Source: Haemophilus parainfluenzae ATCC 33392 (GTDB lineage Bacteria > Pseudomonadota > Gammaproteobacteria > Enterobacterales > Pasteurellaceae). From it: a stretch of 64,000 bases of DNA. Shown here in pieces: positions 26,757-56,547 of this stretch. Made by a program: the position numbers and the translations under genes. How positions within the stretch are numbered: the stretch's first letter is position 1; each line of letters starts with the position of its first letter. A model generated the notes under the pieces. The model had not been told where the DNA came from. It saw only the letters and a list, made by a program, of their open reading frames with translations, and did no database searches. The DNA lies in assembly GCF_031191205.1 (NCBI RefSeq), contig NZ_CP133470.1, forward strand, positions 2,077,690 to 2,141,689. The letters are read 5' to 3'.

Positions 26757-27431
26757 ATGTCTTTTGGAGATAAAAAATTAAGTGAAATCGCTGTCAGCGT
26801 ACCCGGCTCAACTTCCCTACTTCGTGAATACGATTTGGATTTCTGCTGTGGTGGTTCCGATACACTTGCAAATGCAGCGGCAGAAAAAGGATTAAATTTA
26901 GCAGAAATTGAAACCCGTTTAACCGAGCTTCAAAATAGCAAAGCAGAAAACCCTGAAGAATATTGGGTTAATGCAACTTATCCTGAAATTATCGATCATA
27001 TTTTAGTTCGCTACCATCAACGCCATCGTGAACAACTTCAAGAATTAATCGTCTTAGCGGATCGTGTAGAAAGTGTTCATGGCGATCGTGAAGATTGTCC
27101 AATGGGTGTTGCGGCTGAATTACGCAATGTCTATGAGGATTTGAGCAACCATATGATGAAAGAAGAGCATGTGCTTTTCCCAATGATCAAAGCGGGTAAT
27201 TATATGATGGCACAAATGCCAATTCGTATGATGGAAATGGAACATGCTGAACATGGCGAACATTTGGAAGTTTTGAAATCATTAACAAACAATATGACGC
27301 CTCCGGCAGATGCTTGTAATACATGGCTTGCACTTTACAGCGGTATCCAAGAATTTATTGACGATTTAATGATGCATATTCATCGTGAAAATAATATTTT
27401 ATTCCCACGTGTGATTGCTGAAAATCACTAA
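26757..27431 (+). CDS. ytfE: Iron-sulfur cluster repair di-iron protein (YtfE/RIC)
   Basis: YtfE is a cytoplasmic hemerythrin-like di-iron protein that repairs iron-sulfur centres damaged by nitric oxide and oxidants. The chosen ATG gives 224 residues starting MSFGDKKLSEIAVSVPGS and follows AAGGAG at 26743-26748; the longer frame upstream is promoter DNA. The N-terminal ScdA domain has the DFCCGG pair (Cys30, Cys31). Di-iron ligands align by spacing with E. coli YtfE as His87, His132, Glu136, His163, His207 and Glu211. A nitric-oxide-producing nitrite reductase gene (nirK) occurs in the same window. Confidence 0.95.
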   Translation: MSFGDKKLSEIAVSVPGSTSLLREYDLDFCCGGSDTLANAAAEKGLNLAEIETRLTELQNSKAENPEEYWVNATYPEIIDHILVRYHQRHREQLQELIVLADRVESVHGDREDCPMGVAAELRNVYEDLSNHMMKEEHVLFPMIKAGNYMMAQMPIRMMEMEHAEHGEHLEVLKSLTNNMTPPADACNTWLALYSGIQEFIDDLMMHIHRENNILFPRVIAENH

Positions 27432-38116: not shown

Positions 38117-41100
38117 TTACCAGAAGTAACCCGCACTTGCAGTTCCGCCTACTTCACCTTGAGTATTGGTTGTAAAGGATACTTTCACACCGTACTTACC
38201 ATTATCAGATAAGCGAGAGTAACCTACAGCTACTGCACTTTGATTTTGGTATTGTCCTACACCAGCAGTCACTGAAGATTGACCTTCACGGTATGCCTGC
38301 ATTAAGCCAGCTGTAGCTAATGCAGAAGCAGTACCAGCTTTACGGCGTTTATCCATTTTGTTTAGGCTATTGTGAATTTCATTTGTTGCTTTCTTGAGCT
38401 GATTCACATTCACTGCATCAGTACCATCTCTACCTGGCGCTACATTGGTAATACGAGAACCACCAGCATTGATGCCATCTTTAGTCACACTTGGGCCATT
38501 GTTAATGGTTAAGCCATTATCATTGATCGTTGTGTCACCCGCTTTGATGGTTTTCGCTATAACAGTGTTTACAGAAATATCATCTTTCAGTTTCACTTTC
38601 ACACCATTTGCATCAGCAACTGTTTCGATGTTTTTATTATCACCGTTTACAGCCACTTGAGAGCCCAGTTTCTTAACGCCAGTTGTACCTTTATCTGCAT
38701 TGAAGGTTAAACCTTTGTTATTTACTGTGTCGTGTGCATCTACACCTTTATTAATATCATCTTTCGTTTTATTTGAAAGATCTACTTTGTAATCTGTCAC
38801 AGTCGTTGTGCCATTTTTACGTGTAGTTGGTGCTTTGGTTACGGTTATTGCATCAGAACCATCAACGTGAGCCGAATTATCAGTAGCATTTACTTTGTAG
38901 ATAGTTTGACCATTTGAACCTTTAGTACTTGTTACAACAACATTGTCACCTGCTTCAACTTCTGTTTTCGCAGCTTTCAATTGTTTAACATTTACAGCAT
39001 CAGTATCATTTTTACCTTCTGCAACATTCACTACTTTATTACCGCCGTTATCTAAACCTTTATTGGTTAAGGTAACGTTAGTTTTACCACCTTCGGTAGC
39101 TTTGATAGTGATTCCACCATCATTCATTGTGGTTTTACCTGTGGTTACAGAAGTAAAGTCAACATCATCTTTAGTTGCAACTGTGTAAGTTGTGCTACCA
39201 TCTGGATTCTTATCAGATGTCACATTAACATTTTTGCCAGCTGCTACTTTCGTTGTAGCTTGAGCAATACCGTCTTTCAACTGTTTAACATTCACAGCAT
39301 CAGTGTCATCTTCACCAGCTTTGACATCGGTAATTTTGTTACCATCAACGCTTACATTACCACCAGAGATTGTTGTTCCACCATCTTTAAACTCGATTTT
39401 TTGACCATCTTTATTTGAGATAGAATCAATATTCTTCAAGTCTTTAGCAAGTTGAACTTCTAGGGTACCCTCACCATCAGCTTTAACATTGACATTACCT
39501 GCTGCTGATTTAAATGCTTCAGATGCAGCTTTGTCAACGCCTTCACCTTTAATAGTGACTAAAGAATTTAATTTATGGCTATTAACGACTTCATTATTGC
39601 CTGTAAACTTCAAGCCATCGTTAAGTGTTGCCACTTCTTCCTTATCACCATTTGGTTTTTCGTAAACGATACGGGTCTTAGTTTTACCGTCTTTACCATC
39701 GTTACCATCAAGACCTGCTTGGCCTTGTGCAACAGTGATTTTACCGTTAGAACCATCTTTACCGTTGATGCCGATAGTACCGTCTTTACCATTTAAGGCA
39801 ATGCCGTCTTTACCATCCTCACCTTTCAGGCCGATAGAGCCATCTTTACCATTGATAGAGATACCATCTTTACCATTTTCACCTTTAACAGTGATAGTAC
39901 CTGGTTCATTTTCATTACCAATGGTTACATCTTTGTTTAACCCAACTTGTAATTTCGCTTTACCGTCTTTGTCTGTGATAACTTTAGTGGTTACACTACC
40001 GTCGCCTTTAACCGTTACAGTTTCACCAAGTTTAGCTTTAACATCATTACCATTTTCGTCAGTTAAACCAAAGCCATTATTAGTAATATTACCAATAGTA
40101 TCTTTCAAATCACCAACATTAACTGCATTATTTAAAGTGTTTCCAGTAGCATCTTCCAAGGCAACTTTATTTCCTGTTGCGTCTTTCAAGCCACTATCAA
40201 CATTAACGATTTGGTTTCCACCGTTATTTAAGCCCTTATCAGTGACACTAACCGTTTTAGTGTTATCTGCATCTTTTGGTTTAACAGTTAAGCCATTACC
40301 ATCGATAACAGATTTATTACCTGTTGTTTCATCAATGAACGTTGCACTGGTTAAGTCTTGTAGCTGTTTAGCCATTTTCAGAACTAACTTGCCTGCATCA
40401 TTGTCAACACGTAAGTTTTTATCTGTCACGTCTGCATTTGGATCTAACTTACCTAAAATTTCTAGCTCTTCATTAAGTTTCTTCGCAATAGAGTCACCTT
40501 TATCGCCTTTAAATTTCAAGCCATCATTAAGTGTTGCAACATCTTCTTTGATAGTTTTATTTGGATCGTTTGGATCTTTATATTCGTAAACGATACGGTT
40601 TTTGGTTTCACCAGCTTTACCATCAACACCTGCAGGGCCTTGATCGCCTTTGATAGAAACGCCGTTTTTACCGTTTTCACCATTTAAGCCAATAGAACCA
40701 TCTTTACCGTTGAGTACAACTGCAGAACCGTCTTTACCGTTCACACCAATTTGTCCATCAACACCATCTTTACCAGGTTCGCCTTTTTGACCGACTGTCA
40801 CTTTATCTGCAGTAAGATCTTTAGCTAAACCAATAACAACTTTGCCATCTTTAGTCATGGTTTTGATGTTAGTTGCATCATAACGATCATCTGCTTTAGT
40901 GCCTTCACCCACAATATCAAGTTTCTCACCTAAATCTTTGTGAATAACATCACCCGATTGTGCACCAAAATTTAAACCTTTTGCGGTTAAATTATTGGTA
41001 ATTTGGGTGCCTTTAGCCTCTAATTGCTCTTCTGTTGCAGCACGGCCAGCTTTCGCATAAGTTGGACCATTCAGATCTTTATTAGTTAAGCCTGTAATAT

Positions 41101-44100
41101 CACCTGTTTTCGCATCCAATTTGATTGGATTATCACCTGCGACATTAACAACTTGATCAGCTGCAAATTCAACTTTACCGTTACCATCTTTGTTCGTGAT
41201 TGAAGTGATATCTTTCAATGCGCCTTCAACATTCACTTTATATGGATCTGCTTTTGTACCTGTACCAGTTACAGAAGTATTTTTACCATTTACAAGTGCT
41301 GTTTTTGAATCTTTTAACTGTTTAACAGTCACAGCATCATTATCTTCTGTGCCTTCAGCAACATTTTTAATTTGCTTATTGCCACCATCGATACCAGTTT
41401 TAGTCACACTTGGACCACCAGTAATAGTTAAACCATCTTTGTTGATGTTTAGGTTGTTATCACCAAACTTAATTGAACCATCATTAGTTAAATTGATATC
41501 TTTAGACAATTGAACATTTAACTTACCATCTTTGTTATTCACACCAATGTTGTTTTCTGTCAATTTAGTTTTGTCTGCACCACCTACAATATCAATTTTT
41601 TGGTTAAGTTTTTTCGCTATTACTTTAGAGTCATCAGTTTGACCATCATCTCCAGCGAATTTCAAACCATCATCCATTGTTGCAACTTCACGAACAATAT
41701 CTTTGCCGTCTTTGCCTTTAATTGGATTACCGTCTTTATCTTTCGGTGTGTAAACAATACGTTGTGATTTATCTGTACCTGGCTCTTGGTTCACTAAAGT
41801 TTGTGTACCATCATTTGTTGAGATATCAACAGATTTACCGTCGCTACCATCTGCGCCTTTAGGACCAGTTAAACCGATGTGACCAACGCCATCTTTACCT
41901 GCGATAGATACAGCGTCTTTACCATCTTTGCCGGTGATTCCGACTTTACCATCTTCACCTTTAGTACCATTTGGACCCGTGATGGTTACACCATCTTTAC
42001 CGTTAGCACCATCTTTACCATTAACCACAATTTTGTCTAAGTTGGTTAAATTGCTATCTAAAGAATAAGTATAAGTATGATCATCACCATTAATGATTTG
42101 TTTAACTTTTAAGTTTTTACCTGCATCGAAGTTTACCACTGCGCCTGGTTTCACTTTCGTTGCAGTTGATGTGCCATCAAGCTCACCCGTTGATTTCGTT
42201 GCATTCGCTAACCAACCACTGTTATTGATTGCTTCAACGACAGTTTTCACGGTTGCTAAGCCATTATCACCTTTAACGCCAGGTTTGCCATCTTTACCGT
42301 TTGCACCGTGTTCGATCTCACCGATGTTTACATCATATTTAACCACACCATTTGCACCTACAGATGCTGTCGTGAAGTTACCATTTGTGAAGTCTAAACC
42401 ATCAGATACTTTCACTGTGTTCTTAGTTGCAGTATCACCGTTAGATTTATATGCTAATTCTGCATCGCCTAAATTTTGTGCAATAGCATTAACGGTATAT
42501 GTTTTTTGACCCGTTGTTGCATCAGTATCTGTATCAACAGTTACGTTTTGTCCTGCTTTAACAACCGAACCTAAACCAGTAATGACCTTTTTACCGGCAT
42601 CTGTAATATTGCTTAAGTCATTTTTCGCAACACCTGTGATAACTGCTTTTTCATTAGCAACATCTTGACCATTGCCATCTAAATAAGTCATGGTTACGTT
42701 ACCGCTGTTATCCACAGCATACTCGCCTGGTTTAATATGACGTTCAGCTGCTTTCACTGCATTTAATTGGCTAACATTCACAGCATCGGTATTATTTGTA
42801 CCCGCTTTCACATTTGTGATTGCTTTATTACCTGCATTAATACCCTCTTTAGTCACACTTGGACCATTGGTGATTGTTAAACCATCTTTGTTAATGCTTA
42901 AGTTATTATCGCCAAACTTAATTGAACCAGCATCAGTTAAATTGATATCTTTAGATAATTGAACATTTAACTTACCATCTTTGTTATTCACGCCAATGTT
43001 GTTTTCTGTCAATTTAGTTTTATCTGCACCACCTACAATATCAACTTTTTGGTTAAGTTTTTTCGCAATTACTTTAGAGTCATCTGTTTGACCATCATCT
43101 CCTGCGAATTTCAAACCATCATCCATTGTTGCAACTTCACGAACAATATCTTTGCCGTCTTTGCCTTTAATTGGATTACCGTCTTTATCTTTCGGTGTGT
43201 AAACAATACGTTGTGATTTATCTGTACCTGGCTCTTGGTTCACTAAAGTTTGTGTACCATCATTTGTTGAGATATCAACAGATTTACCGTCGCTACCATC
43301 TGCGCCTTTAGGACCAGTTAAACCGATGTGACCAACGCCATCTTTACCTGCGATAGATACAGCGTCTTTACCATCTTTGCCAGTGATTCCGACTTTACCA
43401 TCTTCACCTTTAGCACCATTTGGACCAGTGATAGTTACACCATCTTTACCATCAACACCATCTTTACCATTAACCACAACTTTATCTAAGTTAGTTAAGT
43501 TGCTATCTAAGGAATAGGTATAAGTATGATCATCACCATTAAGCGTTTGTTTAACTTTTAAGTTTTTACCTGCGTCGAAGTTTACCACTGCGCCTGGTTT
43601 CACTTTAGTTGCGGTTGATGTGCCATCAAGTTCACCTGTTGATTTAGTTGCATTTGCTAACCAACCACTGTTATTGATTGCTTCAACGACAGTTTTGACG
43701 GTTGCTAAACCATCAGTACCTTTAACACCAGGTTTACCATCTTTACCGTTTGCACCGTTTTCGATCTCACCTGTCTTCACATCGTATTTAACCACACCAT
43801 TTGCAGCTACTGATGCTGTCGTGAAGTTACCATCAGTGAAATCTAAACCTTCAGTTAATGCAACAGTTTGGTCATTTGCACCATTTGCTTTGTATTTAAT
43901 ATTAAATGCATCAGATCCTGGTACATTTGCTTTTACTTTGTATGTCGTACGACCTACAGCATCTGTTGAATTCGTTACAGTCACTGAACTGTCTGCCGCT
44001 TCAACAATCGTACCTAAACCAGTAATCACTTTTTTGCCATCATTATTGATGTTAGAAAGATCATTTTTAGCCACACCAGTAATCGTTGCTGTCATACCAT

Positions 44101-46987
44101 TAACAACATTACCTTTACCATCTGTGTAAGTTAAACTTACATTACCATCGTTACCTACTGCATAAGTAGTATTAGTAATATGTTTTTCATCATCTAAATT
44201 AGCAACAGTTTTATCGCCATATTTAATACGATCACCCTCGTATTTAATTGTGGTATTACTACTGTTATCGCCAAGTTTAATCTGTTTGGTTTCAACACTG
44301 TTTAAACCTTTAAGATCTTTTGCTAATTTAATTGCTAAACCACCTGTAGCAACACTTGGATTGCTCTCACCAATAACACCAATGTTATTATCAGTTAATT
44401 GCTCTTTATCTGCACCACCTGTGACATTCAATGTTTCGCCTAATTGACGATTTACTGTTACATCTGCATTATCACCTTTAAAGTTTAAACCTTTAGCAAT
44501 ATTCTCTGCATTCTTGGTGATATTTTGCGCATTTTTAGTAATGTTTTGTGCATTATTTGCGATATTATTCGCATTGTTAGTCACATTTTGGTTAGTTGCA
44601 TGAAGCTGTGAACCATTTACGGCATCTTTACTGTCTGCAGAAATTGTACCATTTGATACATTAGTAATTTTCTTATCGCCAGCATTAATGCCATCTTTAG
44701 TTACGCTTGGACCATTTTTAATAGTTAAGCCTTTATCATCTAAAGAAGTATTGCCAGTAGTGACATTCGTGAAAGTGACATTTTCTTTTGTTGCAACGGT
44801 TAAGTTTTTCTCATTTTGAGTAATCTTAATGTTATTTCCAGCTGTAAATGTAACGGTATCACCCATTGCAACTTTTTTCTCAGCATTACCGCTTACTTCA
44901 CCGGTACCTGTTTGCGCTGCTGTAATTTTCCAGCCTTGCTCAACACGTGATGCAACCGCATATAATTGAGAACCATTAATCGCATCTGTTGAATCATCTT
45001 CTACATGACCTGCAGCTACATTTTTAATTTGACGCTCGTTGCCTTTTTCACCAACGCTTACAAAACGACCTGCGTCTTTTGCTTTACCAGCAAAATTATA
45101 GGTGTGACCATCAATTTCTTTACTTGCTACAGTTTCAGTTGCATGAGAACCATCTGCTTTTGAGCTATCACCCAAGATCACTGAACCATTTGTCGCAGCA
45201 GTAATATTGGCACCAATTGCAACAGTGTTTTGACCATTTACTTTTGTATTATGACCAATTGCAACAGAATCAGTCGCAGTTGCACTTGTTCCTGTAAATT
45301 CCCCTAATGCAATAGAGCCCGCCGCTTTTGCACCAAGGTTGTCGTAATTGCTATCTGCATCTGTCTGTTTAGTTTTATCTGCATTAACACTTACATAGTT
45401 GGTTTGTGCTAATTCAACCGCTTCTTTCACGTTATGAAGGGTTTGATTTTTGATATTAAAATCAGGTGCTTTATAGGTGTATCGACCATTACCATCAACG
45501 GTATAACCATTGTAATTTGGTCCAGCGATAGATTTCGCAAGATTATCATTTACTTCAGATAATTGTTTAACATTTACCGCATCAGTATCTTCACGACCAG
45601 CAGCAAGATTCACTAAACGACGCTCTTTACCTTTATTTGCAATCGCAACTACACCGTTCTCAATCTCAAAACCATCATTCGTATATTTTGCATTTTTATT
45701 TTTGATGTCTTCTTGATTGATAATGGTGCCATTACCTAAAGCCAATGAGTTATTTGCATTAGATTGTGCGCTTTCACCGATAGTCATTGCACCTTTTTTA
45801 GTTGCTTTAGAATCCTTACCAATAGTGATTACATTTTCATGTAAAGCTTGTGAATTAGCACCAAATGCAATTGAGTTTGCTTCGCTTGCATTAGCACTAT
45901 TACCAAATGCAATCGCATCTTTTTTATGAGCTTTAGCGTCTACACCAAATGCAATAGAATTCTCGCTACCACCTAATGCATTATAACCAAATGCAATAGA
46001 TTTATTGCCCGATGCTGATGAACTTGTACCGAATGCAATCGCTTTCGCAGCAGGTGTGTTTGGACGAGTTACATTTCCTTCAATATAAGCATCTTTACCA
46101 AGAGAAAATTCACCAGTTTTTGCAAGAGAACCAAAAGCAAAAGAGTCATCACCATTGGTTTTAGCCCCTGTACCAATTGCAACGGAACGAGCACCATTTG
46201 TTTGGGTATTATTCTCACCATCATATCTAGTTCTTCTTGCCTCACCTTCACCAGGTAAACCATTTAATGTTTGAGGCGCTGTATTACCAATTGCAATTGA
46301 TTGATCTCCATTTGCAGTAGCGGATGCACCAAATGCAAAACTAGCCGCACCTTTTGCATATGCTACGGAACCAATAGCTGCAGAGTAATCACCAATTGCT
46401 GCAGATTGACGCATCATTGCTAAAGAGTTAAATCCTGCGGCACGTGAAGCTGTACCAATAGCGGTAGAACCTGTTGTTTCAGCATGAGAAAACGCACCAA
46501 TTGATGTAGCCAAACCACCTGTAGCTTTTGCAAAATCACCAATAGCAATACCATCTGAGGCACCTCTTGAACTTTGTACTGCAGTATTTTTACCAATTGC
46601 AATCCCTTCTGCATATGCCCCATTATTTGCATAAGAATCTTGTCTATTACTTGAGCCATTTGCATTATCGTAAGATCTATTACCTGGGTTTTTATAATCG
46701 TATGCCCAGGTTTGATCTGCACCGTAACTTGGTGCAGCACTCGCACCATCAGAAGTAATAGCATAGCCAGCACTATTTGTTGAACCAATTGCTACATATG
46801 CATGCGCAGCAAGTGGCGATAACGCAAATGGTATAGCAAGTGCGGTTGTTTTTAATAACGTTGAAACTGCTGAAGAGGTTTTCTTCACGCTAGAAACTGA
46901 AGATACCGGTTTTACTTTTGATAATTCAGATACAGCGACCCATACTTGGCTTGAACTACACCAAATTACCTTAAAAATCCTGTTCAT
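38117..46987 (-). CDS. Giant trimeric autotransporter adhesin (Hia/Hsf/YadA type)
   Basis: The 2956-residue protein is a type Vc surface adhesin. Residues 1-25 form the extended signal peptide region (MNRIFKVIWCSSSQVWVAVS), with cleavage expected after AHA at 63. YadA-like head repeats (SVAIGTGAKTNGDDSFAFG type) fill about residues 100-430. Several necks (DAVNVKQL, DAVNGSQL) follow, alternating with stalk. Four Gly-X-Y collagen-like tracts rich in GKDG occur in the stalk, and a 483-residue unit is duplicated in tandem (about residues 1043-1862). The last 80 residues are the YadA beta-barrel anchor ending GGTASAGYFW. The ribosome site is AAGGA; TATAAT on the minus strand at 47075-47080 may be the -10 element. 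No simple-sequence phase-variation tract was seen. The ligand is unknown. Confidence 0.96.
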   Translation of the reverse strand: MNRIFKVIWCSSSQVWVAVSELSKVKPVSSVSSVKKTSSAVSTLLKTTALAIPFALSPLAAHAYVAIGSTNSAGYAITSDGASAAPSYGADQTWAYDYKNPGNRSYDNANGSSNRQDSYANNGAYAEGIAIGKNTAVQSSRGASDGIAIGDFAKATGGLATSIGAFSHAETTGSTAIGTASRAAGFNSLAMMRQSAAIGDYSAAIGSVAYAKGAASFAFGASATANGDQSIAIGNTAPQTLNGLPGEGEARRTRYDGENNTQTNGARSVAIGTGAKTNGDDSFAFGSLAKTGEFSLGKDAYIEGNVTRPNTPAAKAIAFGTSSSASGNKSIAFGYNALGGSENSIAFGVDAKAHKKDAIAFGNSANASEANSIAFGANSQALHENVITIGKDSKATKKGAMTIGESAQSNANNSLALGNGTIINQEDIKNKNAKYTNDGFEIENGVVAIANKGKERRLVNLAAGREDTDAVNVKQLSEVNDNLAKSIAGPNYNGYTVDGNGRYTYKAPDFNIKNQTLHNVKEAVELAQTNYVSVNADKTKQTDADSNYDNLGAKAAGSIALGEFTGTSATATDSVAIGHNTKVNGQNTVAIGANITAATNGSVILGDSSKADGSHATETVASKEIDGHTYNFAGKAKDAGRFVSVGEKGNERQIKNVAAGHVEDDSTDAINGSQLYAVASRVEQGWKITAAQTGTGEVSGNAEKKVAMGDTVTFTAGNNIKITQNEKNLTVATKENVTFTNVTTGNTSLDDKGLTIKNGPSVTKDGINAGDKKITNVSNGTISADSKDAVNGSQLHATNQNVTNNANNIANNAQNITKNAQNITKNAENIAKGLNFKGDNADVTVNRQLGETLNVTGGADKEQLTDNNIGVIGESNPSVATGGLAIKLAKDLKGLNSVETKQIKLGDNSSNTTIKYEGDRIKYGDKTVANLDDEKHITNTTYAVGNDGNVSLTYTDGKGNVVNGMTATITGVAKNDLSNINNDGKKVITGLGTIVEAADSSVTVTNSTDAVGRTTYKVKANVPGSDAFNIKYKANGANDQTVALTEGLDFTDGNFTTASVAANGVVKYDVKTGEIENGANGKDGKPGVKGTDGLATVKTVVEAINNSGWLANATKSTGELDGTSTATKVKPGAVVNFDAGKNLKVKQTLNGDDHTYTYSLDSNLTNLDKVVVNGKDGVDGKDGVTITGPNGAKGEDGKVGITGKDGKDAVSIAGKDGVGHIGLTGPKGADGSDGKSVDISTNDGTQTLVNQEPGTDKSQRIVYTPKDKDGNPIKGKDGKDIVREVATMDDGLKFAGDDGQTDDSKVIAKKLNQKVDIVGGADKTKLTENNIGVNNKDGKLNVQLSKDINLTDAGSIKFGDNNLSINKDGLTITNGPSVTKEGINAGNKAITNVKAGTNNTDAVNVSQLNAVKAAERHIKPGEYAVDNSGNVTMTYLDGNGQDVANEKAVITGVAKNDLSNITDAGKKVITGLGSVVKAGQNVTVDTDTDATTGQKTYTVNAIAQNLGDAELAYKSNGDTATKNTVKVSDGLDFTNGNFTTASVGANGVVKYDVNIGEIEHGANGKDGKPGVKGDNGLATVKTVVEAINNSGWLANATKSTGELDGTSTATKVKPGAVVNFDAGKNLKVKQIINGDDHTYTYSLDSNLTNLDKIVVNGKDGANGKDGVTITGPNGTKGEDGKVGITGKDGKDAVSIAGKDGVGHIGLTGPKGADGSDGKSVDISTNDGTQTLVNQEPGTDKSQRIVYTPKDKDGNPIKGKDGKDIVREVATMDDGLKFAGDDGQTDDSKVIAKKLNQKIDIVGGADKTKLTENNIGVNNKDGKLNVQLSKDINLTNDGSIKFGDNNLNINKDGLTITGGPSVTKTGIDGGNKQIKNVAEGTEDNDAVTVKQLKDSKTALVNGKNTSVTGTGTKADPYKVNVEGALKDITSITNKDGNGKVEFAADQVVNVAGDNPIKLDAKTGDITGLTNKDLNGPTYAKAGRAATEEQLEAKGTQITNNLTAKGLNFGAQSGDVIHKDLGEKLDIVGEGTKADDRYDATNIKTMTKDGKVVIGLAKDLTADKVTVGQKGEPGKDGVDGQIGVNGKDGSAVVLNGKDGSIGLNGENGKNGVSIKGDQGPAGVDGKAGETKNRIVYEYKDPNDPNKTIKEDVATLNDGLKFKGDKGDSIAKKLNEELEILGKLDPNADVTDKNLRVDNDAGKLVLKMAKQLQDLTSATFIDETTGNKSVIDGNGLTVKPKDADNTKTVSVTDKGLNNGGNQIVNVDSGLKDATGNKVALEDATGNTLNNAVNVGDLKDTIGNITNNGFGLTDENGNDVKAKLGETVTVKGDGSVTTKVITDKDGKAKLQVGLNKDVTIGNENEPGTITVKGENGKDGISINGKDGSIGLKGEDGKDGIALNGKDGTIGINGKDGSNGKITVAQGQAGLDGNDGKDGKTKTRIVYEKPNGDKEEVATLNDGLKFTGNNEVVNSHKLNSLVTIKGEGVDKAASEAFKSAAGNVNVKADGEGTLEVQLAKDLKNIDSISNKDGQKIEFKDGGTTISGGNVSVDGNKITDVKAGEDDTDAVNVKQLKDGIAQATTKVAAGKNVNVTSDKNPDGSTTYTVATKDDVDFTSVTTGKTTMNDGGITIKATEGGKTNVTLTNKGLDNGGNKVVNVAEGKNDTDAVNVKQLKAAKTEVEAGDNVVVTSTKGSNGQTIYKVNATDNSAHVDGSDAITVTKAPTTRKNGTTTVTDYKVDLSNKTKDDINKGVDAHDTVNNKGLTFNADKGTTGVKKLGSQVAVNGDNKNIETVADANGVKVKLKDDISVNTVIAKTIKAGDTTINDNGLTINNGPSVTKDGINAGGSRITNVAPGRDGTDAVNVNQLKKATNEIHNSLNKMDKRRKAGTASALATAGLMQAYREGQSSVTAGVGQYQNQSAVAVGYSRLSDNGKYGVKVSFTTNTQGEVGGTASAGYFW
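41401..42411 (-). repeat. Adhesin internal duplication, C-terminal copy
   Basis: This roughly 1-kb segment is homologous to 42850-43860 at a constant offset of 1449 bp (483 codons). Bases 41655-41932 are identical, by eye, to 43104-43381. Confidence 0.9.
42850..43860 (-). repeat. Adhesin internal duplication, N-terminal copy
   Basis: This is the partner of 41401-42411. It encodes a neck, a collagen-like tract and a stalk block of about residues 1043-1380. The outer ends of the two copies diverge, while the centre is identical. Confidence 0.9.
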
Positions 46988-49047: not shown

Positions 49048-49725
49048 ATGAATATTTCAAATCCTAATCACAATCGTAAAGCCCTTGTGATCTTCTCTGG
49101 TGGACAAGATTCCACAACCTGTTTAATTCAAGCTATTGCCGAATATGGCGTGGAAAATGTCGAAACCGTCACCTTTCAATATGGCCAACGTCATTCTATT
49201 GAATTAGAAAAAGCCCGTTGGATCGCCAAAGATCTCGGTGTAAAACAAACGTTGATTGATACGTCCGTCATCAAATCCATTACCCATAATGCCTTAATGG
49301 ATGCCAATGCAGATATTGAACAAAAAGACGGGGAATTACCGAATACCTTTGTGGATGGCCGAAACGCACTCTTCTTATTATATGCCGCGATCTATGCAAA
49401 AGGACAAGGTATTAATGACATTATTACGGGCGTATGTGAAACAGATTTCAGTGGCTATCCCGATTGCCGTGATGTGTTTATCAAATCCATGAATGTCACC
49501 CTTAATTTAGCCATGGATTATCCATTCAATTTAAAAACACCACTAATGTATCTCACTAAAGCCCAAACCTGGGCTCTTGCCGATGAATTAGGTACGTTAG
49601 ATTATATTCGTCAGCACACTCACACTTGCTACGAAGGTGTTGAAGGCGGTTGCAGGGAATGCCCAAGCTGCAAATTGAGAGATAAAGGCTTGCTGGAATA
49701 TTTAGCCACAAAAGTAAAAGCTTAG
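49048..49725 (+). CDS. queC: 7-cyano-7-deazaguanine synthase
   Basis: QueC makes preQ0 from 7-carboxy-7-deazaguanine with ATP and ammonia, in the queuosine pathway. The 225-residue protein has the PP-loop [13 protein letters not shown] near the N-terminus, [14 protein letters not shown] and [14 protein letters not shown]. Its C-terminal zinc site is [18 protein letters not shown]. The leader carries a preQ1-I riboswitch that overlaps the ribosome site, so expression should fall when preQ1 is plentiful. A strong uptake-signal-pair terminator follows. Confidence 0.97.
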
Positions 49726-49774
49726 TATCGAGATAATTTAACCCATAACAGATTTAATAGGTTCAAATGAATCC

Positions 49775-49815
49775 AAAGTGCGGTCAAAATTCACGTCAAA
49801 TTTTGACCGCACTTT
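49775..49815 (+). terminator. Uptake-signal-pair terminator of queC
   Basis: The 17-base arm 49775-49791 (AAAGTGCGGTCAAAATT) is perfectly complementary to 49799-49815. Confidence 0.92.
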
Positions 49816-49920
49816 TACTTGATATAGTATCCGTCTCTTTTCTCATCTTTAATTTTATAAATGCGTCATTTTTTGATAAAATCACGCTAATTTTTTTATA
49901 AATAAGTAACTAATTTTAAA

Positions 49921-51819
49921 ATGACTACAAATTATTCTGCTCAAGAAATTACGGTCCTGAAAGATCTCGAACCGGTGCAAATTCGCCCCGGTATGTACAC
50001 GGACACCACCCGTCCAAATCACCTTGCTCAAGAAGTTATTGATAACAGTGTGGATGAAGCTCTTGCGGGTTTTGCCACCAAAGTTGAAGTAATTTTACAT
50101 GCTGATCAATCACTTGAAGTCATTGATAATGGACGCGGGATGCCAGTGGACATTCATCCAACGGAAGGCGTTTCTGGTGTGGAAGTGATCTTAACTAAAC
50201 TTCACGCTGGCGGTAAGTTCTCGAATAAAAACTATGAATTTGCCGGTGGTTTACACGGGGTGGGGATTTCTGTTGTCAATGCCCTTTCTGAACGCGTTGA
50301 TATTCAAGTCAAACGTAACGGCGAAGTGTATAAAATTGCCTTTGAAAATGGCGTAAAAGTAGAAGAATTAGAAGTCATCGGGACTTGTGGCAGACGTACA
50401 ACCGGTACCACCGTTCACTTCAAACCAAATCCAAAATATTTTGATAGCAAGAATTTTTCTGTTAGTCGTTTACGCCACTTATTGCGTGCTAAAGCCGTGC
50501 TTTGTTCAGGCTTAGAGATTAAATTTGTTGATAAAGTGAATAACACCGAAGATGTGTGGTGTTATCAAGATGGTTTATCCGATTACTTAACCGAAGCGGT
50601 GAATGGTTTTGAAACCTTACCTGAAAAACCTTTTGTCGGCGAGTTTAAAGGATCTACAGAAGCGGTAAGCTGGGCATTATTATGGTTGCCAGAAGGTGGT
50701 GAGCTTATTGCAGAAAGCTATGTAAACTTGATTCCAACAGTACAAGGCGGAACACATGTGAATGGTCTTCGCCAAGGCTTGCTCAATGCCATGACTGAAT
50801 ATTGCGAATTCCGCAATAAATTACCACGTGGCGTGAAATTAACGGCTGACGACATTTGGGATCGCTGTGCTTACATTCTTTCGCTCAAAATGCAGGATGC
50901 CCAATTTGCAGGGCAAACGAAAGAACGTTTATCTTCTCGTCAAAGTGCGGTCTTTGTTGCGGGTGTTTTAAAAGATGCCTTCAGTTTATGGCTAAACCAA
51001 AACGTACAAGATGCGGATCGCTTAGCTGAAATGGCGATCAGTTCTGCACAACGTCGTTTAAATGCTGCGAAAAAAGTCGTGCGTAAAAAATTAGTCAGCG
51101 GTCCTGCTCTACCGGGTAAATTGGCAGATTGCGCATCACAAAATTTAGAAAAAACCGAATTATTCTTAGTCGAAGGTGACTCTGCGGGCGGCTCAGCCAA
51201 ACAGGCTCGAGACCGTGAATATCAAGCGATCCTGCCGTTACGCGGAAAAATCTTAAACACTTGGGAAGTCGCTAGCGATCAAGTACTTGGCTCAACGGAA
51301 ATTCATGATATTGCTGTGGCACTAGGTATCGATCCTGATAATGAAGACTTATCTCAACTTCGTTACGGGAAAGTCTGTATTTTAGCCGATGCGGACTCCG
51401 ATGGTTTACATATTGCTACCCTACTCTGCGCCCTCTTTTTACGTCATTTTCCGAAATTAGTGCAAGATGGGCATGTCTATGTGGCCATGCCACCACTCTA
51501 TCGTATCGACTTAGGCAAAGAAGTGTTTTATGCCCTTGATGAAAATGAGAAAGAAGCCATTTTAGAACGTTTAAAAGGTAAAAAAGGCACTTTAAACGTA
51601 CAACGATTCAAAGGTTTGGGTGAAATGGATCCGTCACAATTACGTGAAACCACCATGGATCCGAATACTCGCCGATTAGTTCAATTAACTTACGATCTTG
51701 AGGAAGATCAAGGCGCAGCGACATTAGAATTAATGGATATGTTACTCGCTAAAAAACGGGCAGAAGATCGCAAAAATTGGTTGCAAACTAATGGCGATCA
51801 AGTGGATTTAATAGTTTAA
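49921..51819 (+). CDS. parE: DNA topoisomerase IV subunit B
   Basis: ParE is the ATPase subunit of topoisomerase IV, which separates replicated chromosomes. The 632-residue protein has the GHKL ATPase domain (VIDNSVDEALAGF, DNGRGMPVD, FAGGLHGVGISVVNALS) and the TOPRIM domain with LVEGDSAGGSAKQARDRE and ADADSDGLHIATL. Length matches E. coli ParE (630). An uptake signal lies inside the gene near 50944. The stop is followed after 16 bp by nirK rather than by parC. Confidence 0.97.
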   Translation: MTTNYSAQEITVLKDLEPVQIRPGMYTDTTRPNHLAQEVIDNSVDEALAGFATKVEVILHADQSLEVIDNGRGMPVDIHPTEGVSGVEVILTKLHAGGKFSNKNYEFAGGLHGVGISVVNALSERVDIQVKRNGEVYKIAFENGVKVEELEVIGTCGRRTTGTTVHFKPNPKYFDSKNFSVSRLRHLLRAKAVLCSGLEIKFVDKVNNTEDVWCYQDGLSDYLTEAVNGFETLPEKPFVGEFKGSTEAVSWALLWLPEGGELIAESYVNLIPTVQGGTHVNGLRQGLLNAMTEYCEFRNKLPRGVKLTADDIWDRCAYILSLKMQDAQFAGQTKERLSSRQSAVFVAGVLKDAFSLWLNQNVQDADRLAEMAISSAQRRLNAAKKVVRKKLVSGPALPGKLADCASQNLEKTELFLVEGDSAGGSAKQARDREYQAILPLRGKILNTWEVASDQVLGSTEIHDIAVALGIDPDNEDLSQLRYGKVCILADADSDGLHIATLLCALFLRHFPKLVQDGHVYVAMPPLYRIDLGKEVFYALDENEKEAILERLKGKKGTLNVQRFKGLGEMDPSQLRETTMDPNTRRLVQLTYDLEEDQGAATLELMDMLLAKKRAEDRKNWLQTNGDQVDLIV

Positions 51820-51835
51820 GTATTCGAGGTCAATC

Positions 51836-53029
51836 ATGAACGAACAACGTCGAGATTTTTTTAGAAACAGCGCATTAGGCTTAGCAACGATTACATTAGG
51901 TGCAGGTTTTAGTCTCATTCCTTCTGCTCAAGCGGAAGAAAAAGCCTCAAATGTGACGGCTACTGCAGTTGAAAATTTACCTGAGATTGAAGCAGAATTG
52001 ACGCTCGCGCCCAATGTACCAAAACCGATTGAACGTAACTATCCGGCAAAAGTCGTGGTGAAACTAACCGCACTTGAACAAATTATGGATTTAATGGATG
52101 GCGTGCAATTTAAATTTTGGACATTAAACGGTAGCGTGCCTGCACCATTTATTCGTGTACGCGAAGGTGATATGGTAGAAGTGCAACTTTCCAACTCAGC
52201 AAGTTCCATGATGCCACATAGTCTTGATTTCCATGCAGCACCTGTACCAATGGGAGGGGCAATGGCAAGTGAAACCCCACCAACTCGGACATCTACCTTC
52301 CAATTTAGAGCGTTACGTTCAGGCATTTATCTATACCACTGTGGCAGCCAACCTGTGGATATTCATCTCGCGAAAGGAATGTATGGTTTAGTTTTAGTTG
52401 AGCCAAAAGAAGGCTTACCAAAAGTGGATCGTGAGTTTTACATTATGCAAAGTGAATTCTATACCAAAGGTGAATTTGGCGATCCTGGCTTGCAACCGTT
52501 CAGTATGAAAAAAGCCATTGATGAGCGCCCTGAATATGTCCTCTTCAACGGCAAAGTTGGTTCAACCATGGATGAAAATGCCTTAAAAGCAAAAACCGGT
52601 GAAACCATTCGTCTATTCGTAGGAAATGCAGGACCGAATTTATGCTCTTCTTTCCACTTAATCGGTGCAGTATTTGACAATGTGTATGTGGAAGGTGGTA
52701 CGCTTATTAATCACAATGTTCAAACTACATTGATTCCATCCGGTAGCGCCACCATGGTGGAAACTCGAATTGATGTACCTGGCACTTATGTCTTTATGGA
52801 TCACTCCATTTTCCGCGCAGTAAATAAAGGCACAATGGGACATATTGTGGTTGAAGGTGAAAAAAATCCGAATATTTATTCTGGAAAACTAAAAGACGAA
52901 GCCTTTAAAGAAGCTAACCCACAAAAACCACAACCCGTTCCTTACGAAATTGACAGTCACAAAGGAATGGATATGGGACATTCTCATCACGAACATTCTG
53001 ATGCGAATTCCGGTGCAACAAGAAAATAA
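51836..53029 (+). CDS. nirK: Copper-containing nitrite reductase (AniA/NirK type)
   Basis: The enzyme reduces nitrite to nitric oxide in the periplasm. The 397-residue protein starts with a Tat-type signal (QRRDFFRNSALG, cleavage expected after AQA at 33) and has two cupredoxin domains. All copper ligands are present. Type 1 ligands are His128, Cys169, His177 and Met182; type 2 ligands are His133, His168 and His323. The catalytic pair is Asp131 and His274. Stretches such as KGMYGLVLVEPKEGLPKVD and DHSIFRAVNKG closely match Neisseria AniA. The C-terminus is His-rich (GMDMGHSHHEHSD). It lies between parE (16 bp) and parC (11 bp). FtsP/SufI was considered and rejected because that protein lacks these copper ligands. 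Confidence 0.93.
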   Translation: MNEQRRDFFRNSALGLATITLGAGFSLIPSAQAEEKASNVTATAVENLPEIEAELTLAPNVPKPIERNYPAKVVVKLTALEQIMDLMDGVQFKFWTLNGSVPAPFIRVREGDMVEVQLSNSASSMMPHSLDFHAAPVPMGGAMASETPPTRTSTFQFRALRSGIYLYHCGSQPVDIHLAKGMYGLVLVEPKEGLPKVDREFYIMQSEFYTKGEFGDPGLQPFSMKKAIDERPEYVLFNGKVGSTMDENALKAKTGETIRLFVGNAGPNLCSSFHLIGAVFDNVYVEGGTLINHNVQTTLIPSGSATMVETRIDVPGTYVFMDHSIFRAVNKGTMGHIVVEGEKNPNIYSGKLKDEAFKEANPQKPQPVPYEIDSHKGMDMGHSHHEHSDANSGATRK

Positions 53030-53040
53030 ATTAGAAGAAT

Positions 53041-55296
53041 ATGAGCAATATTAACTACGAAGGCATCGAGCAGATGCCACTTCGCACCTTTACAGAAAAG
53101 GCTTATCTTAATTATTCAATGTACGTCATCATGGATCGTGCATTGCCTTTTATTGGTGATGGCTTAAAACCTGTCCAACGTCGTATTGTTTATGCGATGT
53201 CTGAACTGGGTTTAAATGCCGCGGCAAAATTTAAAAAATCTGCGCGTACCGTCGGTGATGTATTAGGTAAATTCCATCCACACGGTGACTCCGCCTGTTA
53301 TGAAGCCATGGTATTAATGGCTCAGCCCTTTTCTTACCGTTATCCTTTAGTGGATGGCCAAGGAAACTGGGGGGCGCCAGATGATCCTAAATCATTCGCG
53401 GCGATGCGTTATACAGAATCTCGCTTGTCCAAAATCTCTGAAATTCTATTATCTGAATTAGGTCAAGGTACTGTTGATTTCCAACCGAACTTTGATGGTA
53501 CTTTAGAAGAACCACAATATTTGCCTGCGCGTTTGCCTCATATTCTGTTAAACGGCACCACCGGGATTGCTGTCGGGATGGCAACAGATATTCCACCACA
53601 CAATATTAATGAAGTAGCAGATGCAGCTGTGATGCTATTAGATAATCCAAAAGTAGGATTAGATGATGTGCTCAATATCATTCAAGGCCCTGATTTCCCA
53701 ACTGAAGCGGAAATTATTTCCCCTAAAGATGATATTCGCAAAATGTATGAAACTGGTCGTGGCTCTATTAAGATGCGCGCAACATGGCATAAAGAAGACG
53801 GGGAAATCATCATTAGTGCACTTCCTCATCAATCTTCCCCCTCTAAAATCATTGCACAAATCGCTGAGCAAATGACAGCGAAAAAATTGCCAATGGTGGA
53901 AGATATTCGTGATGAAGCAGATTATGAAAATCCTGTGCGTATCGTGCTTGTACCACGTTCAAATCGCGTAGACACGGATGCCTTGATGGCGCATTTATTT
54001 GCGACGACGGATCTCGAAAAAAGCTATCGTGTGAATATGAATATGATCGGACTTGATCATAAACCAGCCGTGAAAGGCTTACTTCAAGTTCTCACAGAAT
54101 GGCTGACATTCCGTCGTACTACCGTGACACGCCGTTTACAACATCGTTTAGATAAAGTACTCGCTCGTTTACACATTTTAGATGGTTTGATGATTGCCTT
54201 CCTCAATATTGATGAAGTCATTGAGATTATTCGCACAGAAGACGAACCTAAACAAGTTTTAATGGCTCGTTTTAACTTAAGTGATGAACAGGCAGAAGCC
54301 ATTTTAAACTTACGTTTGCGCCATTTAGCCAAATTAGAAGAACATCAATTACAAGCTGAAAAAGATAAACTTGAAGAAGAGCGGTCAAATTTAGAGTTAA
54401 TTTTGGGATCTGAACGTCGCTTAAATACCTTGATCAAAAAAGAAATTCAAGAAGATGCGAAAAAATACGCCAGTCCTAGAATGTCTCAATTAGTTGAACG
54501 TGAAGAAGCGAAAGCTATTTCTGAAAGTGAAATGACTCCAGCAGAACCTGTCACTGTTATCTTATCTGAAATGGGCTGGGTTCGTTGTGCGAAAGGTCAT
54601 GACATTGATCCGGCAGGATTAAGCTATAAAGCCGGTGATAAATATCTCGCCCACGCTTGTGGTAAAAGTAATCAACCGGTGATCTTTATTGATAGTACAG
54701 GTCGTAGTTATGCTTTAGATCCATTAAGCTTGCCTTCTGCGCGTTCACAAGGTGAACCTCTCACTGGTAAACTCACATTACCGGCCGGTGCGACGATTGA
54801 ACAGGTTATTATGGAACCTGAAAAACAAGAATTATTGATGGCATCAGATGCAGGATACGGTTTTATTTGCAAATTTGAAGATTTAATTGCACGCAATAAA
54901 GCAGGAAAAGCCTTGATTTCTTTGCCAGAAAATGCGAAAGTCTTGAAACCTGAGAAACTTTCCGAGTCGGCCTCACTTCTTGTGTCCCTCACTTCAGCGG
55001 GTCGAATGCTGATTTTTCCGGTACGAGATTTACCGGCATTATCAAAAGGGAAAGGCAACAAAATCATCAGTATTCCAGCAGCGAATGCAAAAGCGCGGTC
55101 AGAATTATTGGTGAAATTGTTCTTAATTTCAGAGCAAGCCAGCCTTGAGTTCCATTCCGGTAAACGAAAAATCACATTAAAACCGGAAGATCTGCAAAAA
55201 TTCCGAGCGGAACGCGGCAGAAAAGGCTCCCAATTACCACGTGGATTACATAGTAATGTTGATATTGTGGTAATTGAACCCGAACACAACTCATAA
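53041..55296 (+). CDS. parC: DNA topoisomerase IV subunit A
   Basis: ParC cuts and rejoins DNA in topoisomerase IV. The catalytic tyrosine is Tyr124 in [11 protein letters not shown]. The quinolone-resistance region reads [16 protein letters not shown] with wild-type Ser84 and Glu88, so no classical resistance change is seen there. The C-terminal beta-pinwheel domain starts near residue 490. At 751 residues it is a normal ParC. It begins 11 bp after nirK and has no obvious promoter of its own, so it is probably read through from parE-nirK. Confidence 0.97.
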
Positions 55297-55332
55297 GAAT
55301 TCTCGGAACCAAACTAAATAGGAGGATATTTC

Positions 55333-56547
55333 GTGAATATTGTTTTTGACACTTATCAAACACTTGCTTTAGCAAGCTTTGTATTATTACTCGGTTATTT
55401 TCTAGTAAAACGCATTCGAGTTTTACAAACATTCAATATCCCAGAGCCTGTTGTTGGCGGCTTTATTGTGGCTATTGCATTAACGATTTTATATAAAGTA
55501 AATGGCACTTCATTCACTTTTGAGAAAAGCTTACAAACATCCATGATGTTGGTATTTTTCTCCTCTATCGGTTTAAGTGCAAACTTTTCTCGCTTAATTA
55601 AAGGTGGAAAACCATTAGTTATCTTCCTCTTTGCAGCGGCAATACTCATTGTTTGCCAAAATGTCATCGGTATTGTAGGCACTAAATTATTAGGTATTGA
55701 TCCTGCTTACGGTTTACTTGCTGGTTCAGTCACCCTAACAGGTGGTCATGGTACTGGTGCGGCATGGGCAGAAACATTTACTAAAGAATTTAATCTACCG
55801 GCTGCAACAGAAATTGCGATGGCATGTGCCACGTTTGGTTTAGTCTTTGGTGGTGTTTTAGGTGGTCCAGTATCTCGTTATTTATTAAATCATCAAAAAC
55901 AAGGTGAAAACCCAGAGAATGATGACGTAGATGACGTACAAGAAGCATTTGAGCACCCGACTTACAAACGTAAAATAAATGCGCGCTCAATCATTGAGAC
56001 CATTGCAATGCTTTCTTTATGTTTACTCATCGGTCAATATTTAGATGGCTTAACAAAAGGTACAGAAATGCAATTACCAACATTCATATGGTGTTTATTT
56101 ACAGGGGTAATTATTCGTAACAGCTTAACCAATTTATTCAAATTCCAAGTCGCTGATTCAGCGATTGACGTATTAGGTAGTGTAGGTTTATCTATCTTCT
56201 TAGCCATTGCCTTAATGTCTCTCAAGCTTTGGGAATTGGTAGGTCTTGCAGGAGATGTACTCATTATTTTAGCGGTTCAAGTTGTCTTCATGGCTTTCTT
56301 CGCCATCTACGTCACATACCGAATGATGGGTAAAGATTATGATGCGATTGTATTAAGTGCGGGTCACTGTGGTTTCGGTCTCGGTGCAACACCAACAGCA
56401 GTTGCTAACATGCAAGCGATTACTAGTCGTTTCGGACCTTCTCACAAAGCCTTCTTAATCGTACCAATGGTAGGGGCGTTCTTTATTGACTTATTAAATA
56501 ATGGTATTTTAAAAATGTTCTTAAACCTTGTTAAATACCTTCACTAA
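55333..56547 (+). CDS. gltS: Sodium/glutamate symporter
   Basis: GltS imports glutamate with sodium across the inner membrane. The 404-residue protein has about ten helices in two inverted repeats. Its two family motifs are GGHGTGAAWAETF and GHCGFGLGATPTAVANMQ. The start codon is GTG at 55333, placed by the strong ribosome site GGAGGA at 55321-55326. It follows parC by 36 bp and may be partly cotranscribed. A bidirectional terminator separates it from the convergent mfd. Confidence 0.95.
   Translation: MNIVFDTYQTLALASFVLLLGYFLVKRIRVLQTFNIPEPVVGGFIVAIALTILYKVNGTSFTFEKSLQTSMMLVFFSSIGLSANFSRLIKGGKPLVIFLFAAAILIVCQNVIGIVGTKLLGIDPAYGLLAGSVTLTGGHGTGAAWAETFTKEFNLPAATEIAMACATFGLVFGGVLGGPVSRYLLNHQKQGENPENDDVDDVQEAFEHPTYKRKINARSIIETIAMLSLCLLIGQYLDGLTKGTEMQLPTFIWCLFTGVIIRNSLTNLFKFQVADSAIDVLGSVGLSIFLAIALMSLKLWELVGLAGDVLIILAVQVVFMAFFAIYVTYRMMGKDYDAIVLSAGHCGFGLGATPTAVANMQAITSRFGPSHKAFLIVPMVGAFFIDLLNNGILKMFLNLVKYLH

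Follow-up and report, generated by a model that had tools for sequence, protein, structure and literature searches.

Predicted AniA-type copper nitrite reductase encoded between parE and parC in Haemophilus parainfluenzae and other Pasteurellaceae

AniA of Neisseria gonorrhoeae is an outer-membrane lipoprotein that is encoded beside norB. A three-domain haem-copper NirK, from Ralstonia pickettii and several Neisseria, shares the same core and bears a cytochrome c domain at its C terminus (PF00034/PF13442, in rows of about 490–530 amino acids (aa)). Here we describe nirK, a gene located between the topoisomerase IV genes parE and parC in a stretch of 64,000 nucleotides of Haemophilus parainfluenzae ATCC 33392 (contig NZ_CP133470.1, positions 2,077,690 to 2,141,689; hereafter, the window). 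Its product, which lacks a cytochrome c domain, differs from AniA (PDB 5tb7/5ue6/1kbv) in its twin-arginine-type leader, its His/Met-rich tail, the letters of both copper loops and its place in a topoisomerase IV gene row. The type B NirKs of the Pasteurellaceae (among them those of Pasteurella bettyae, P. langaaensis and Actinobacillus porcinus) are 54–65% identical to it and share all of the ligands. Where NCBI names them, they are called 'copper-containing nitrite reductase' or similar, and relatives from Rodentibacter, Aggregatibacter, Actinobacillus and others are named copper-containing nitrite reductase as well.

A 2022 study by Morou-Bermudez reportedly treats the denitrification genes of H. 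parainfluenzae. The species is counted among the nitrate-reducing mouth bacteria in passages of PMC3966736 and PMC12267184; a passage of the former places nirK among the genes looked for in a parainfluenzae strain, and one of the latter, a review, cites Morou-Bermudez 2022 on the species. The gene belongs to a known family, and its lasting locus and the changed ends of its product deserve attention; no description of the parE-nirK-parC order or of the leader and tail switch was found in the open-licence literature searched. The evidence below makes it highly probable that the window encodes an intact AniA-type nitrite reductase that is exported and produces nitric oxide (NO), which a quinol NO reductase (qNOR) then consumes, and that the parE-nirK-parC locus is ancestral and has been lost repeatedly.

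The nitrite reductase and its branch

The original prediction described a 397-residue protein with all of the copper ligands and the Asp131/His274 pair, and read it as an intact enzyme; the open reading frame (ORF) and the alignments bear this out. In a profile search, the ORF product scores 330.8 bits against TIGR02376, for which the curated equivalog cut-off is 296.3, and it contains two cupredoxin domains (PF07732 and PF07731). Its closest solved relative by sequence is gonococcal AniA, aligned over residues 42–358 at 435 bits. The predicted model finds a fold match over residues 43–295, which covers the second cupredoxin domain in part only; the matched fold rows extend mainly over residues 41–295. 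The gene is present as a single copy in the home genome. The roles given to the ligand and catalytic residues (Table 1) follow copper nitrite reductase structures, and their positions were taken from the alignments.

To place the protein in its family, 140 Pasteurellaceae genomes, grouped by genus codes with g1 as the home code, were searched with NirK, ParE and ParC. Among the 76 genomes with a NirK match, 57 scored above 400 bits and were counted, and 19 with weak matches (below 50 bits, to longer multicopper oxidases) were left out. All 57 NirKs retain the seven copper ligands together with Asp131 and His274. Judged from its sequence, the window gene thus encodes an intact, NO-forming copper nitrite reductase of the AniA type.

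The family NirKs form two groups, one of which is a branch of 25 genomes in g1, g5 and g38 (H. parainfluenzae/Rodentibacter/Aggregatibacter), with a Shimodaira–Hasegawa-like approximate likelihood ratio test (SH-aLRT) value of 99. The leader of the window protein, MNEQRRDFFRNSALGLATITLGAGF, has an RRx[FL] motif near its start followed by a hydrophobic stretch, which was our motif test for predicted twin-arginine export; we judged the motif and the cleavage site by eye. The leader lacks a lipobox cysteine, as no Cys occurs in the protein before C169, and the lipoprotein signal tested for the AniA subfamily was not found. The RRx[FL] leader occurs in 25/25 NirKs of the branch and in only one of the 32 others (G038), although the leader is unsure in G026 and G027, in which the nirK start codon is itself unsure. 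The PVPYEI linker divides the groups completely (25/25 against 0/32). The last 25 residues hold 3–7 His and Met in the branch (median 6, where 1.5 would be expected from the remainder of the protein) and 0–3 in the others (median 1). Likewise, the type 1 loop reads CGSQPV[DAS][IV]HLAKGM in all 25 branch members and differs in the other family NirKs, being one residue longer in 20/32 of type B. Together, these differences suggest that nirK held its position while the export signal, the tail and the loop changed.

Spread and origin of the parE-nirK-parC locus

The two topoisomerase IV genes share a strand and are within 5 kb of each other in 97 genomes, 43 of which encode NirK between parE and parC. 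The order is therefore found in 43 of the 57 NirK-bearing genomes, in eight genus codes (g1, g5, g6, g7, g11, g14, g32 and g38), with a further case in G024, where nirK stands beside parC at a contig end; among type B it accounts for 18/32. Named records with this order come from H. parainfluenzae, Rodentibacter, Aggregatibacter and Pasteurella bettyae. The remaining 13 genomes carry nirK elsewhere: in nine, parE and parC are widely separated, differ in strand or fall on separate contigs, G005 gave no parC match, and G040, G051 and G054 have close parE and parC genes without nirK between them. As a separate observation, a record titled Pseudomonas stutzeri NCTC11607 (L013, CABDVE010000001.1) has the same gene order, with ParE 90% and ParC 88% identical to those of the window, and is probably a mislabelled member of the Pasteurellaceae.

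In a NirK tree of 74 rows, all Pasteurellaceae NirKs form one clade (SH-aLRT 99), which adjoins five Neisseria rows (SH-aLRT 91, not starred), with 10 further rows serving as the outgroup. The protein therefore groups with Neisseria AniA ahead of other NirKs, as the original prediction had proposed to check, and the grouping expected of the AniA subfamily was recovered. In a ParE+ParC tree of 98 genomes, explaining which genomes have NirK at the locus takes 12 changes or more, as compared to about 32 with shuffled labels; here the label was NirK in the parE-parC locus (44 rows, including G024), with G040, G051 and G054 scored as none and the G062 row 20% filled. Ten g19 genomes, which from their place in the tree, not by name, we take to be the H. 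influenzae/haemolyticus group, lack NirK, and some 70 bp separate their parE and parC genes. Since these NirK-free genomes nest between the carriers of g1 and g38, loss is simpler than separate gains at one spot. On this evidence, nirK would have stood between parE and parC in an ancestor of many Pasteurellaceae genera and would then have been lost repeatedly, including in the group taken for H. influenzae.

The composition and divergence of the gene point the same way. The GC content of nirK (0.420) and its GC content at third codon positions (GC3, 0.317) are like those of parE and parC, and its synonymous divergence among strains (dS 0.40) compares with 0.30 for parE. The ratio of nonsynonymous to synonymous divergence (dN/dS) in 10 close home-genus genomes is 0.038 for nirK, 0.016 for parE and 0.025 for parC, and in g38 it is 0.075, 0.023 and 0.044, respectively (pairs without usable dS left out; 64/66, 54/55 and 50/55 kept). 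The low values indicate that nirK is kept by selection, less tightly than topoisomerase IV.

Probable nitrogen oxide pathway and gene arrangement

The home genome also encodes NapA, NrfA and YtfE, the last at about 26778–27413 in the window. The expectation that NO would be made in an organism with YtfE fits this gene content, and the genome has in addition a 747-aa qNOR that had been missed. This Neisseria-type protein was found with PF00115 and with solved qNORs, which it matches at up to 1134.6 bits, and NCBIfam assigned it no family. No NosZ match was obtained in the home genome with the one model searched (TIGR04246). The original prediction had H. influenzae using NrfA in place of NirK; in the home genome NrfA accompanies NirK, and it occurs in 129/140 family genomes; the nrfA match in G024 (C31:21280-22570) comes in two overlapping pieces, owing to a frameshift or a sequencing error. 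Across the 140 genomes, 27 have both NirK and qNOR, 30 NirK only, 15 qNOR only and 68 neither (p 0.0003), where 42 of 46 PF00115 genomes were counted as qNOR by score and length, G054, G132, G133 and G134 (about 480–500 bits) were left out, and the home qNOR alone was checked individually.

From these genes, a likely route leads from nitrate through nitrite and NO to N2O, and a second branch ends in ammonia. NirK would be made from the parE-nirK-parC gene row and exported to the periplasm, most likely in folded form through the twin-arginine system. Its type 1 copper would take up electrons and its type 2 copper would convert nitrite to NO, which qNOR would reduce to N2O, while Nap would form nitrite from nitrate and NrfA would turn nitrite into ammonia. 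A small cytochrome c (PF13442, L193:1417-1740), detected in a search with one model only, is a possible electron donor. Beside its gene lies one that is thioredoxin-like by eye; the pair (L193:932-1740) could supply electrons to reductases of the periplasm.

The three genes lie on one strand, with gaps of 16 and 11 bp (Table 1), as originally described. The absence of a terminator, also claimed at the outset, is borne out by a scan of 49600–55600, which placed no terminator-like site at either nirK junction. The scan listed five such sites in all, against 5.5 expected, and the two on the + strand within the three genes are both in coding sequence. None of 43 nirK-parC intervals holds a pair of facing uptake signals that could serve as a terminator, and promoter-like sites at the locus are at the shuffle level (14 against 14.3). 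The ribosome-binding-like stretch ahead of nirK is kept in 10/11 genomes of the home genus code. The short gaps, this stretch and the lack of a terminator-like site fit a single parE-nirK-parC transcript.

The nirK start lies 1–84 bp past the parE stop in 41/43 genomes (192 and 210 bp in the other two, G026 and G027, whose start is unsure), while the gap to parC is 10–11 bp in 10/11 home-genus genomes and 39–1029 bp in the remaining 33. The lasting tie thus seems to be the one with parE, and close spacing to parC would be special to H. parainfluenzae-like genomes. Five genomes of Rodentibacter and Aggregatibacter (L157, L163, L167, L094 and L097) have an extra ORF between nirK and parC, of 188, 188, 191, 207 and 105 aa, respectively, so the interval seems to acquire genes more than once.

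Table 1. Coordinates of nirK, its sequence features and its neighbours in the window
Feature	Position	Strand	Basis
parE, topoisomerase IV subunit B	49921..51819	+	TIGR01055, 1196.4 bits (cut-off 723.35)
16-bp gap with GAGG ribosome-binding-like stretch	51820..51835	+	read from sequence
nirK (aniA-like), predicted NO-forming copper nitrite reductase, 397 aa from ATG	51836..53029	+	TIGR02376, AniA match, all ligands
Predicted twin-arginine-type export signal, MNEQRRDFF... to about residue 33 (AQA)	51836..51934	+	RRx[FL] within first 25 residues
HSLDFH: type 1 ligand H128, catalytic D131, type 2 ligand H133	52217..52234	+	57/57 family NirKs
HCGSQPVDIHLAKGM: type 2 ligand H168, type 1 ligands C169, H177, M182	52337..52381	+	alignments; loop letters unlike AniA, equal length
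Catalytic H274	52655..52657	+	57/57 family NirKs
Type 2 ligand H323	52802..52804	+	57/57 family NirKs
C-terminal extension NPQKPQPVPYEI and His/Met-rich tail, residues 361–397	52916..53026	+	PVPYEI 25/25 in branch
11-bp nirK-parC gap without terminator-like site	53030..53040	+	sequence and terminator scan
parC, topoisomerase IV subunit A	53041..55296	+	TIGR01062, 1362 bits (cut-off 628.9)

Around these features, a sodium/glutamate symporter gene (PF03616, 55333–56547, + strand) starts 36 bp past parC behind AGGAGG and may share the transcript. Between parE and its upstream neighbour, a hairpin of 19 pairs (49775–49815) is made up of two uptake signals that face each other, which the scan scored as terminator-like on the - strand only. 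Elsewhere in the window, a 2956-aa ORF (38117–46987, - strand) with many repeated head and stalk motifs is, by resemblance, probably a trimeric autotransporter adhesin.

Alternative explanations and meaning

Several observations weigh against an old and intact nitrite reductase locus. The predicted model is of middling confidence, with a mean predicted local distance difference test score (pLDDT) of 75.4 and values below 50 for residues 373–397. The NirK tree was made by a quick method, with no bootstrap and no Ralstonia, and its long rows (G038, G040 and G030 among them) are unsure. No nirK remnant was detected by translated search in 52 parE-parC intervals (those of 51 NirK-free genomes and of G040, with the G051 and G054 intervals left out; best E 0.87, among the best 60 lines seen), so the losses rest on the trees, and the 12 locus changes could include gains. 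The g17 NirK groups with that of g6 in the NirK tree, yet the two codes are far apart in the ParE+ParC tree, and some transfer of NirK within the Pasteurellaceae is likely. The link between NirK and qNOR was not recovered once relatedness was controlled for (11 independent pairs, median p 1). Lastly, both copper loops have changed, with CGSQPVDIH for CAVAPVGMH of AniA at the type 1 site and HAAPVPMGGA for HAATGQGGGA.

Because these changes lie beside both coppers, and PVPYEI and the His/Met-rich tail are confined to the g1/g5/g38 branch, the protein could have acquired another function as a copper protein of this fold without nitrite reductase activity, for example in copper handling. We consider this very unlikely, given the invariant ligands and Asp-His pair, the strong purifying selection, the TIGR02376 score above the equivalog cut-off and the presence of a qNOR to use NO. 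Still less credible is that the gap between parE and parC recently received the gene by horizontal transfer from Neisseria or some other bacterium of the mouth. Of the rows tested, those of Neisseria come closest to the family from outside, and named Neisseria proteins are 56–61% identical to the window NirK. The original prediction held that the gene had been gained by transfer and inserted between the topoisomerase IV genes, and remarked that it already carries an uptake signal near 52070. This signal does exist, at 52067–52075, but there are 35 in the window, one for roughly every 1.8 kb, and it does not point to a newcomer undergoing adaptation. Likewise, comparison of the parE-parC interval across the family contradicts a recent insertion, as the order is shared by eight genus codes. 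With the single clade, the neighbour-like GC and GC3 and a dS as large as that of parE, we rejected recent transfer.

A more serious, if still minority, possibility is that nirK has its own oxygen- or nitrite-regulated promoter in the 3' part of parE and that its neighbourhood is a passive leftover. In 7/12 NirK-bearing g38 genomes, an FNR-like site with one mismatch lies about 335 bp upstream, inside parE, and the window has a one-mismatch site at 51698. Passages of PMC1274295 predict regulation by FNR, NarP and NsrR for neisserial nirK and by NarP for norB of two Pasteurellaceae. Moreover, 13/57 NirKs, plus the one at a contig end, were not seen between parE and parC, so that nirK can reside elsewhere. 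Against this, the 11 genomes of the home genus code share no FNR-like site with one mismatch or fewer. Only the window genome has the site at 51698, to which one with two mismatches corresponds in G077, and the other two-mismatch sites of the genus lie at −12 in 9/11, overlapping the start codon, or at −48 in 2/11. The short gaps without a terminator-like site and the start of nirK within 84 bp of the parE stop in 41/43 genomes also speak for expression with parE. Constitutive expression of nirK with an essential enzyme, as originally proposed, would be a guess, since a promoter within parE is possible.

One further proposal can be made, which we regard as speculative and doubtful. The g1/g5/g38 NirK may have been rebuilt in place, with a twin-arginine leader, a PVPYEI linker and a copper-catching tail, the gap to parC shrinking to 11 bp in H. 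parainfluenzae and the close spacing to parE being retained, such that NO output would be paced with topoisomerase IV and growth rather than with oxygen or nitrite, and the tail would aid copper loading in copper-poor host sites. Copper capture by the His/Met-rich tail is itself a guess.

For the organism, an intact NirK together with a qNOR makes H. parainfluenzae a predicted source of NO and N2O, and not just of nitrite and ammonia. For the family, the shared parE-nirK-parC order offers a simple marker of ancient genes and of their repeated loss, and it makes testable why a respiratory gene persists within a row of replication genes.
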